Assembly: GCA_013815385.1 (NCBI GenBank)
Contig: JACDGL010000008.1
Coordinates: 1-64,000 of the forward strand
Length of the DNA stretch: 64,000 bases
Source: Taibaiella sp.
Lineage (GTDB): Bacteria; Bacteroidota; Bacteroidia; Chitinophagales; Chitinophagaceae
Direction: 5' to 3'
In this document: piece by piece, positions 59,591 through 62,613 of the stretch
How positions within the stretch are numbered: the stretch's first letter is position 1
How the letters are laid out: every line of letters starts with the position of its first letter
The notes under the pieces: model-generated
What the model saw: the letters and a program-made list of their open reading frames with translations, nothing else
Databases searched by the model: none
What the model was told of the DNA's origin: nothing
Translations under genes and position numbers: made by a program

Positions 59591-60553
59591 ATGATGGAAA
59601 AAAGACAAATAGGCCATTCCTCACTTCGAATTGCCCCTTGGGTATTGGGTGGTAATGTATTTGGCTGGACGGCAGACGAAAAGACATCTCATGCTATATT
59701 GGATGAGTTTGTAGCCGCTGAATTCAATTGTATTGATACGGCAAATGTCTATTCTCGCTGGAAAGCAGGAAATAAAGGTGGCGAATCAGAAACTATAATC
59801 GGTAACTGGCTGAAGAAAACCGGCAAAAGAAGCGATGTAATTATTGCCACAAAAGTGGGTATGGAAATGGGGGCTGACAAAAAAGGATTGAAAAGAAACT
59901 ACATAATACAGGAAGTGGAAGCCTCATTAAAAAGATTGCAAACAGACTATATAGACCTTTATTTCAGTCATCAGGATGATTTCGATACTCCTCTTCTGGA
60001 AACATTGGATACATATGCTACGCTTATTAAAGAAGGTAAGGTAAGGGCCATAGGCGCCTCTAACTTTAGCCCAGATCGGCTAACAGAGTCATTAATACTC
60101 TCTATGAAATATGATTATCCGCGCTACGAATGCCTTCAGCCGGAGTATAATCTATACGAACGTTCAGGATTTGAAAAAGAGCTTCAGGAAATTTGCATTG
60201 ATAAGCAGATAGGTGTAGTTCCCTATTATTCACTGGCAAGTGGTTTCCTGACAGGCAAATACCGCACAGAAAAAGACTTTGAAAAAAGTGCTCGCAGCGG
60301 TGGTGTGAAAAGATTCATGAATGATAAGGGCAACAGGATACTTGCCACTCTTGACGAAGTTGCGGTGCTGCATAATGCCACTCCGGCACAAATAGCGCTG
60401 GCCTGGCTATTGGTGCAGCCAGGTATTACCGCGCCTATTGCAAGCGTATCTAAGCCCGAACAAGTACAGGAACTGGCAAAGGCAGCCACATTAATACTGG
60501 ATATAACTACTATAGCAAAACTAAATGCCGCCGGCAAACCTGTTCATGCGTAA
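59591..60553 (+). CDS. Aldo/keto reductase
   Basis: 320 residues (ATG at 59591; another ATG at 59594). TIM barrel with the tetrad D49 and Y54 (IDTANVYS), K88 (IATKVG) and H127 (FSHQDD). NADPH-linked reductase of aldehydes or ketones; it lacks the substrate-specific tail of characterised enzymes. The next gene starts eight bases inside its end. Confidence 0.92.
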   Translation: MMEKRQIGHSSLRIAPWVLGGNVFGWTADEKTSHAILDEFVAAEFNCIDTANVYSRWKAGNKGGESETIIGNWLKKTGKRSDVIIATKVGMEMGADKKGLKRNYIIQEVEASLKRLQTDYIDLYFSHQDDFDTPLLETLDTYATLIKEGKVRAIGASNFSPDRLTESLILSMKYDYPRYECLQPEYNLYERSGFEKELQEICIDKQIGVVPYYSLASGFLTGKYRTEKDFEKSARSGGVKRFMNDKGNRILATLDEVAVLHNATPAQIALAWLLVQPGITAPIASVSKPEQVQELAKAATLILDITTIAKLNAAGKPVHA

Positions 60554-60986
60554 CACAAAACACATTATTATCGTTTTATTACTTCTTTCTATTCTGGCTA
60601 TTAATGCAAAGGCACAGTCAATTGATGCTATTGACCAGGATTATAATAAATGTAAGATCGAACATAATACAGCACCTGGGATGTCCCAATGCGCTTATGT
60701 TGCATATGGCAAATGGGACAGCGAGATGAACAGGAACTATCAGAGGATACTTAAATTATTAAAAAAACCTGCTGATAAATCGTTATTTACTACAGCGCAG
60801 AATTCCTGGAAAACTTTTAGGGATGCGGAGTTTGCCGCTTACAACAGTATGTTCAATCGTCCTGGTGATAAATGGACCATACTTCGATTAGAAAGCAGGA
60901 TAAATATCGTGCGTGTTCGCACCCTGCAACTTTACCAGTATTATGATTCCCTGAAAAATATAAGTAAGGAGTTAAGTAAGAAGTAG
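60546..60986 (+). CDS. LprI-like lysozyme-inhibitor family protein (DUF1311)
   Basis: 146 residues from the ATG at 60546, chosen because it heads the signal peptide MRNTKHIIIVLLLLSILAINA. It shows the LprI/DUF1311 pattern: CKIEHNTAPGMSQCAYVAY, DSEMNRNYQRILKLL, QNSWKTFRDAEFAAYNSMF. Some members inhibit lysozyme; others are unstudied. Cysteines in MSQC and KCKIE are conserved in the family. Start overlaps the aldo/keto reductase end (ATGCGTAA). Confidence 0.82.
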   Translation: MRNTKHIIIVLLLLSILAINAKAQSIDAIDQDYNKCKIEHNTAPGMSQCAYVAYGKWDSEMNRNYQRILKLLKKPADKSLFTTAQNSWKTFRDAEFAAYNSMFNRPGDKWTILRLESRINIVRVRTLQLYQYYDSLKNISKELSKK

Positions 60987-61054
60987 AGCGATTCAATTTT
61001 ATTTGAATATAGGCTGTTCGCAAGGCTATTGATAAAAAATACAGGCAATATCAA

Positions 61055-61062
61055 TAACTTTG
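61055..61062 (+). promoter_or_regulatory. Putative -7 element for dgkA
   Basis: TAACTTTG matches TAnnTTTG and lies 15 bases before the ATG at 61078. A TTG is present upstream (61029-61031) but at 23 bases, slightly wide. Confidence 0.35.
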
Positions 61063-61077
61063 CATCCTACTATAGTT

Positions 61078-61449
61078 ATGCCGGGATTTATAAAAAATGT
61101 ACAATTCGCTTCACATGGCATTCGCGTATTCTTTAAAACAGAAAAGAATGGCAAAATCCAGGGCATTATCGCTGTTCTGGTAATAATAAGTGGTATTTTC
61201 CTTAAGATTTCCCGTACCGAATGGCTTTTTATTCTCGGTTTTATTGCAATGATCATCAGCCTCGAGATGCTCAATTCTGCTATAGAAAAAATATGCAACA
61301 TGATAAGTGCTGAGTATCATCCGCAGATCAAGATCATCAAAGACATAAGCGCAGCGGCAGTTTTATTTGCAGCGGTCATTGCAGCGGTAGCAGGACTCAT
61401 CATTTTTATACCATACCTATTGCCTCTTATTAATGGTAGAACCATTTAA
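61078..61449 (+). CDS. dgkA: Diacylglycerol/undecaprenol kinase family membrane protein
   Basis: 123 residues from the ATG at 61078; an in-frame TTG at 61060 is unlikely. Three membrane helices (about 32-50, 53-71 and 95-115) and the active-site EMLNSAIEKICN motif of the DgkA family (E residues at the glutamate pair) in the second helix. These kinases phosphorylate diacylglycerol or undecaprenol. Next gene, 26 bases downstream, is a phosphatase-like membrane protein; together they could control a lipid phosphate level. Confidence 0.9.
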   Translation: MPGFIKNVQFASHGIRVFFKTEKNGKIQGIIAVLVIISGIFLKISRTEWLFILGFIAMIISLEMLNSAIEKICNMISAEYHPQIKIIKDISAAAVLFAAVIAAVAGLIIFIPYLLPLINGRTI

Positions 61450-61475
61450 TTGCAAACAAATATTATCTTAGGGCA

Positions 61476-62546
61476 ATGAAGAAGCTCATCGTCTTTGCGA
61501 TGTTATGGATATGCTGGGGATATGCATTAGGAACGCTTATTCTACTCGGGCCGCTTAGGCAATTAATAGATTTTGTACGTACCAAATCATGGACTTATGA
61601 GCAGGAGCGCATTGTGGCGCTAAGTACCATAGGTGTACTAATAGTTATATCCTTTCTGTTTGCATTATTGTTTACACGCATCTTCATGTCCAGTTTTAGC
61701 TTTGTGGTTAAGACTTTGATAGTTGCCATTCCACTTGCATGCACAGCAATGTCAATTTTCTTGTTCCTTCACCCCGCTTATATAGATAGGAATACCCCCA
61801 TAACTAAGGTGAATTACCAGTTCACTATCGGCCCCTATCCTGATCTGGAAAAGATGGAGCAATTAAAAAAAGAGGGCTATACAGCTATCATTTCACTGCT
61901 GCACCCTGCTATTATACCATTTGAACCCAAGCTGATTAGTGAAGAGACCGAAAATGCCCAGTCTGCGGGTATACAAATGATAAATATACCCTTACTACCA
62001 TGGATAGCTGAAAATGAAGATGCTATAGAACGCATACGCGAATTGGTAAGGACAGGAAAGGGTAAGTACTATATACATTGCTATCTGGGAAGGGATAGGG
62101 CAAACGTCGTAAAGCGCATAATATTGCAGGAAAGCAAAGCTCCTATATATGTAGATAAGGAGATAATACTGCCTTCTATTAATAATCTGACTGATTTTGA
62201 ACGGGGACCTATTTACCGCTTAGATCTGCAGTACGACTATCTTACCCCTATGCCTACAAAAGAGGAATATATCACTTATATAGTAGCGGCCAACTTCCAG
62301 GAGATAGTAGCCCTTTGCGATACCAGCGATGACCAGATAAGTGAACAGTATAAGAACGAGAAAAAATGGCTTGCCACTTATAAGATCCCTTACAAGCAAT
62401 TTTTTATTAATGAAAGAACAAGTGAAAACACACTCAAAACAATAGCGCATTCCATTAAAGGTCTGTCAAAGCCTTTTCTGGTGCATGTATACAATACAAA
62501 AGATCCTATTACCAGGTCTTTCATGAAGGCTTATATGGAAAATTGA
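61476..62546 (+). CDS. Membrane protein with tandem protein-tyrosine-phosphatase-like domains
   Basis: 356 residues. Two or three membrane helices in the first 100 residues. Then a PTP/dual-specificity fold (about 110-230): the P-loop IHCYLGRDRANVV has HC(x)5R with C202 and R208. A second unit (about 260-356) has a similar arrangement but the P-loop reads LVHVYNTKDPITR, where the catalytic cysteine is valine. So one active and one degenerate phosphatase-like domain. Such proteins may act on phosphoinositide or phosphatidylglycerophosphate-like lipids, or on tyrosine. Adjacent to dgkA, supporting a lipid role (inference). Confidence 0.7.
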   Translation: MKKLIVFAMLWICWGYALGTLILLGPLRQLIDFVRTKSWTYEQERIVALSTIGVLIVISFLFALLFTRIFMSSFSFVVKTLIVAIPLACTAMSIFLFLHPAYIDRNTPITKVNYQFTIGPYPDLEKMEQLKKEGYTAIISLLHPAIIPFEPKLISEETENAQSAGIQMINIPLLPWIAENEDAIERIRELVRTGKGKYYIHCYLGRDRANVVKRIILQESKAPIYVDKEIILPSINNLTDFERGPIYRLDLQYDYLTPMPTKEEYITYIVAANFQEIVALCDTSDDQISEQYKNEKKWLATYKIPYKQFFINERTSENTLKTIAHSIKGLSKPFLVHVYNTKDPITRSFMKAYMEN

Positions 62547-62584: not shown

Positions 62585-62613
62585 AAAGCCGCGTGGATGT
62601 ACCACGCGGCTTT
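62585..62613. terminator. Terminator between the phosphatase-like gene and rpoD
   Basis: Perfect 12-bp stem AAAGCCGCGTGG / CCACGCGGCTTT (loop ATGTA) with an A run before and T run after, serving both convergent genes. Confidence 0.85.

Follow-up and report, generated by a model that had tools for sequence, protein, structure and literature searches.

The end of the 64-kb stretch of DNA analysed here (the window) carries two genes on the same strand, one for a small DgkA-type kinase and, 26 bp downstream, one for a membrane protein with two phosphatase-like domains (Table 1). The question raised by this pair is whether both products act on the same lipid, and if so, on which side of the membrane. 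The original prediction, made from the sequence, had proposed a kinase and an opposing phosphatase acting as a compact lipid phosphate switch.

The kinase gene and its transcription unit

Judged from its profile matches, the product of the upstream gene is an enzyme for phosphorylating lipid. It matches DAGK_prokar (PF01219) at E 4.3e-32 (110.4 bits; cut-off 22.3) over positions 2-102 of the 102 in the profile, and a PDB search aligned its sequence with E. coli DgkA structures at E of about 2e-10, which agrees with its initial assignment as a DgkA lipid kinase. It is the sole DgkA gene of the window genome. A longer reading frame starting with TTG at 61060 is available, but the ATG at 61078 was preferred because the TTG overlaps the motif TAACTTTG, which conforms perfectly to TAnnTTTG, the Bacteroidota -7 promoter consensus. 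This pattern has 23 matches on the plus strand of the window, of which TAACTTTG is the only one within 60901-61500. No terminator was seen between the kinase and phosphatase genes, a strong hairpin lying 3′ of the latter, from which a two-gene transcript appears likely; the two genes probably form one small transcription unit. Directly 5′ of the kinase gene, an ORF for a small LprI-like (PF07007) secreted protein (60525-60986) overlaps the end of an aldo/keto reductase gene.

Table 1. Features of the kinase-phosphatase locus (window positions)
Feature	Position	Strand	Basis or remark
Putative Bacteroidota -7 promoter-like motif TAACTTTG	61055..61062	+	perfect TAnnTTTG match, just 5′ of kinase start
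DgkA-type lipid kinase, 123 aa	61078..61449	+	PF01219 match, PDB DgkA match
Membrane-anchored protein with tandem PTP-fold domains, 356 aa	61476..62546	+	
N-terminal region, residues 1-107, three TM segments (about 4-22, 46-64, 80-98)	61476..61796	+	hydropathy and charge count; helices in model
D1, residues 108-228, phosphatase domain, intact P-loop HCYLGRDR	61797..62159	+	
D2, residues 241-356, degenerate phosphatase domain, V338 for Cys, P344 for Arg	62196..62543	+	
Bidirectional intrinsic-terminator-like hairpin	62585..62613	+	3′ of phosphatase gene; 12-pair stem, 8 G-C

A membrane-anchored protein with an intact and a degenerate phosphatase domain

No Pfam or NCBIfam model matched the phosphatase above its cut-off. 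An AlphaFold model computed from a 15-row alignment (pLDDT 83, pTM 0.52) has two PTP folds following the three N-terminal TM segments, and profile-profile comparison of the two domains (hhalign; probability 94.6%, E 7e-8) indicates that D1 and D2 are homologous. The predicted combination of an active and a degenerate phosphatase domain in a membrane protein was thus borne out, the second half being PTP-like as well. With VIA-align, D1 was matched best by the DUF442 phosphatase 3gxg (Z 11.3, 115 residues, 2.9 Å) and D2 (model residues 232-356) by Siw14 (Z 10.2, 109 residues, 2.5 Å), D2 also matching TpbA (Z 9.8); PTPMT1 was among the fold matches of the phosphatase (Z 8.9). Several of the alignments cover residues 113-305, which suggests that a helix of D2 may complete D1. 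When its profile was searched against PDB sequences, the phosphatase gave weak matches only (2f46 at E 0.025 over D2). A match to a "Tc-R-P polymorphic toxin phosphatase" (E 0.053) was below cut-off and without toxin context, and was taken as generic DSP similarity.

The member set used for comparison consists of 15 full-length proteins, among which the relatives are 26-43% identical to the window phosphatase, and three short ones. The HC(x)5R signature noted earlier for the window protein, with C202 and R208, is present in D1 as H201-C202-Y-L-G-R-D207-R208 (C202, D207 and R208 at 62079-62099), and 14 of the 15 full-length members carry H-C-Y-L-G-x-D-R there. The loop reads HCYLGKDR in 11 of the 15, HCYLGRDR in the window protein and L003, and HCYLGVDR in L033. 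A conserved WPD Asp was not found in the family. In atypical lipid phosphatases, the P-loop is HCXXGKDR, with Asp as the general acid and Lys binding the substrate, and there is no WPD loop (PMC3091653). The D1 P-loop resembles the active site of MptpB and LipA of this type, a likeness of the predicted active site and not one of membership: the extended signature HCXXGKDR[TA]G (PMC3091653) is absent, AN or VN following the P-loop in nearly all members, and PF13350 matches the phosphatase only at E 0.044 (14.2 bits), below its cut-off of 22.2.

For D2, the valine in place of cysteine within HVYNTKDPITR was located as predicted (V338). The arginine of this motif is R347, however, and C+6 is occupied by P344. 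D2 has therefore lost the catalytic Arg along with the Cys; a second active site using R347 was rejected as being out of register. The Cys of D2 is missing in all 15 full-length members, where V, H, S, G, F, R or A stands in its place, and the His before the lost position is invariant among the same 15. Despite this loss, 11 residues in D2 are invariant among the 14 members, compared with 27 in D1, which argues that D2 is still under constraint. To our knowledge, such a built-in pseudophosphatase is unusual in bacteria. In the short, single-domain member L038 (187 aa), a D2-type start (FERG and PxPTDxEY) is combined with the intact loop HCFLGRDR, suggesting a catalytic past for the D2 type. 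Loss of the nucleophile is not confined to D2. In L036 (L036:268-1734; 488 aa), the D1 P-loop reads HSYLDNNR and D1 is probably dead too; with its apparent third repeat start (VVVGPKPTVKEYQKY), this relative is possibly an all-dead phosphatase array. Another member, L039 (L039:6471-7154), has three TM segments and a single domain with no Cys P-loop (YLFGPDKFD), that is, it appears as a free-standing pseudophosphatase.

By charge count, all 18 members (15 full-length, three short) have a net positive N-terminus. Among those with three TM segments, a neutral to positive charge is likewise seen in the TM2-TM3 loop; that between TM1 and TM2 is mostly near neutral or acidic. L037 and L038 have one TM segment each. 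An uneven number of TM segments (three, or one in L037 and L038) combined with this charge bias places the phosphatase domains, by prediction, in the periplasm, consistently across the 18 members. DgkA acts at the cytoplasmic face. The two enzymes would thus work on opposite faces, and could share a lipid only if that lipid crosses the membrane. A kinase-phosphatase switch on one and the same face was rejected on this predicted topology.

Distribution of the phosphatase and its neighbours

The phosphatase family is rare. It was found in 14 of 394 genomes of the same taxonomic family at E 0.001 (nine being strong full-length matches) and in 7 of 395 genomes across the phylum; one more member is located on a Wallbacteria contig (L003). 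A plasmid search with the phosphatase gave no match. DgkA is the neighbour in two of the 15 full-length members and another probable lipid kinase in four. The remaining nine (the L003 locus being cut by the contig end) have no lipid kinase neighbour, at least three of them carrying DgkA at another site in the genome. No additional kinase-paired member came to light when sampling was widened within genus, order and class.

The second DgkA-paired locus belongs to another genus (genome G386) and has kinase and phosphatase in the same order and on the same strand, 41 bp apart. When 82 kb around the window locus (73 ORFs) were compared with 45 kb around that of G386 (43 ORFs), exactly two matches were obtained, namely the pair itself, with 44% identity between the phosphatases and 57% between the kinases. 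Trees of both proteins place window and G386 as sisters (99/98 and 94/91), which points to probably one ancestral kinase-phosphatase pair that was kept while the surroundings changed. The expected linkage of the two genes therefore extends to a second genus with unrelated flanks, but to a minority of the family only. Each of the two kinase pairings may go back to a single ancestral event. A second DgkA of G386 adjoins DUF1361, which is a common DgkA neighbour in many other relatives of the same taxonomic family; DgkA is accompanied by a DUF1361-like membrane protein in L044-L046, L048, L050, L051 and L053-L055 (confirmed by Pfam for L048 and L055).

In L001, L026, L027 and L028, the phosphatase gene is followed by that of a membrane protein of 243-249 aa. 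The ORFs overlap by about 17-29 bases (L001:6088-6104, L026:7862-7890, L027:8523-8542, L028:4165-4184), which suggests translational coupling. These neighbours contain the motifs RKxxH, GDAxGEPxG and TRSxEGS (CTP_transf/polyprenol-kinase-like). They matched no Pfam or NCBIfam model directly, CTP_transf_1 (PF01148) giving nothing up to E 5. A profile of them finds L082-L084, of which L082 matches PF01148 at E 9e-5 (22.9 bits; cut-off 24); the hhalign probability was 98.8% against this bridging set and 26% against CdsA. In the structural model (pLDDT 67), the top Foldseek match is CdsA, weak at E 0.22, and all VIA-align matches are under Z 8; a PDB sequence search returned nothing useful. With moderate confidence, the protein is a probable CTP-type polyprenol or DAG kinase, its link to PF01148 passing through one intermediate. 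Of 284 family genomes, just three (G016, G083 and G162) have a strong match to this protein, in each case adjoining the phosphatase, and DgkA is absent in these three, which were the ones checked of the four relatives concerned. A kinase-like family unrelated to DgkA takes the place of DgkA at the phosphatase in other genera.

A further set of loci (L002, L026, L033, L034, L035 and that of the short L038) encodes, in varying subsets, a PgaC-like glycosyltransferase, a YaiO barrel, a response regulator, a HEAT protein and a membrane-anchored family of 380-420 aa (L026:9021-10256, L033:8224-9375, L034:9578-10747, L035:5048-6217, L038:2007-3155). This last family, without a Pfam or NCBIfam match above cut-off and travelling with YaiO and PgaC-like genes, is likely a new exopolysaccharide component; it is absent from the window genome and from G386. 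The loci of L033-L035 also encode an LtaS/MdoB-like sulfatase-fold protein. At L003, L030-L032 and L036, no partner adjoins the phosphatase.

Candidate functions and relation to known systems

Because two kinase families associate with the phosphatase, a shared lipid is the best explanation of the pair, and a probability of roughly 0.4 is given to DgkA and the phosphatase acting on one membrane lipid pool by recycling a lipid phosphate across the leaflets. On the cytoplasmic side, DgkA would phosphorylate diacylglycerol or undecaprenol as its lipid alcohol, and the periplasm-facing D1 would take the phosphate off the lipid, with C202 as the nucleophile, R208 as the phosphate cradle and, by analogy with MptpB-type enzymes, D207 as the probable general acid. 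Candidate substrates would be undecaprenyl phosphate or diphosphate, and PA. D2 would be a pseudophosphatase packed on D1, most likely binding substrate or keeping D1 in shape; the pseudophosphatase domain of PTPRK is described as recruiting substrate (PMC9640194), and D2 may act in an analogous manner. The cross-leaflet step would be tied to exopolysaccharide export in some relatives. In favor of recycling across the membrane are the retention of the pair, and of no other gene, in two genera, the second kinase-like family at the phosphatase in four further loci, the likeness of the D1 loop to the lipid-active HCXXGKDR (PMC3091653), the charge bias of all 18 members, and the position of the terminator. 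Against it stand the nine full-length members lacking a lipid kinase neighbour, the possibly single origin of each kinase pairing, the one intermediate and the weak CdsA match by which the second kinase family was assigned, the Arg instead of Lys in the window P-loop, and the opposite predicted faces of the two enzymes. A more specific version, according to which the phosphatase is a periplasmic undecaprenyl-phosphate phosphatase, the free polyprenol is re-phosphorylated inside by DgkA or the CTP-type kinase, and the pseudophosphatase domain serves as control in a two-enzyme cycle setting the lipid carrier level, is improbable as it stands.

Alternatively, the phosphatase would be a TpbA-like periplasmic enzyme for protein (pTyr or pSer/Thr), or a phosphoglycan phosphatase, regulating surface polysaccharide, the lipid kinases recycling DAG or carrier for the same envelope process with another substrate. 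TpbA, itself periplasmic, controls Pel polysaccharide (PMC2691606), D2 matches it in fold, six members lie in PgaC/YaiO-type loci with response regulators, and three of these encode LtaS/MdoB-like proteins, the DAG released by E. coli MdoB being recycled by DgkA (PMC8027125). Yet the marker protein of these loci is missing from both genomes with the DgkA pair, and the P-loop Asp and lack of WPD are closer to lipid phosphatases than to pTyr enzymes, which leaves this a somewhat unlikely explanation. That there is no functional link, two envelope genes having been inherited side by side and the phosphatase acting on an unrelated substrate, would agree with most members having no kinase neighbour and with a DgkA pairing that may have arisen once; it is rather doubtful, given that these two genes alone stay together where all surroundings differ, and that another kinase-like family replaces DgkA in other genera. 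A PTPMT1-type phosphatidylglycerophosphate phosphatase replacing PgpA is very improbable: PgpA is absent from G000, G016, G083, G162, G084 and G160, and PTPMT1 is among the fold matches, but across the 23 genomes compared nine other members have PgpA and six of eight non-members lack it. The presence of PgpA thus does not track with the phosphatase, and a core step would call for a far commoner family.

The analysis defines an unannotated phosphatase family, from Bacteroidota and one Wallbacteria contig, and links it to two lipid-kinase-like families that are unrelated to each other. Should the lipid assignment hold, a role expected of PAP2 or BacA enzymes would be filled by a Cys-based PTP-fold enzyme, and the origin of free undecaprenol would become testable with one gene pair. 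In Staphylococcus, undecaprenyl-phosphate phosphatase activity was reported without an assigned protein, and the source of undecaprenol is likewise noted as unassigned (PMC5723303); if the undecaprenyl-phosphate phosphatase reading is true, the family would supply a protein for this type of activity, though in other bacteria. A literature search for a DSP/DAG-kinase gene pair returned nothing relevant. The idea of pairing a lipid kinase with a phosphatase is itself not new, because the mcr genes for lipid A modification are accompanied by dgkA and by genes for PAP2-type lipid phosphatases (PMC7559476) and undecaprenol kinase and UPP phosphatases work in one cycle (PMC5723303). As far as the searches show, the novelty lies in finding, beside a lipid kinase, a Cys-based enzyme of PTP fold that carries a pseudophosphatase repeat and falls outside any curated family.

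Compared with known systems, the protein shares with the MptpB/LipA type (Y_phosphatase3, PF13350) the Cys-based PTP fold, the loop HCYLG[K/R]DR with Asp right before Arg, and the lack of a conserved WPD Asp, but differs in the sub-threshold family match, the missing [TA]G, the membrane anchor, the second, dead domain and the predicted periplasmic side. The DUF442/Blh phosphatase-like domain (3gxg; NF040641) is the best fold match of D1 and gives a weak sequence match (E 1.3e-5, residues 111-207), which amounts to 24 of 625 bits, far under the curated cut-off; unlike Blh, the present protein has no dioxygenase domain, and it is duplicated and TM-anchored. With TpbA of Pseudomonas aeruginosa, a dual-specificity phosphatase, it has in common the PTP fold, the predicted periplasmic side and, in some loci, the exopolysaccharide link, whereas TpbA is a secreted, single-domain enzyme with pTyr activity, for which no lipid kinase neighbour is described in PMC2691606. 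Receptor PTPs such as PTPRK likewise have an active membrane-proximal D1 followed by a dead distal D2 described as able to recruit substrate (PMC9640194), but they are eukaryotic classical PTPs with cytosolic domains, and their duplication is independent. A parallel to the predicted arrangement, a lipid kinase and a periplasmic lipid phosphatase in linked lipid cycles, is offered by hpap2 and dgkA linked to mcr (PMC7559476) and by the undecaprenol kinase DgkA with UPP phosphatases (PMC5723303); the phosphatases there are of the PAP2/BacA type and not Cys-based, and hpap2 and dgkA accompany different mcr genes.
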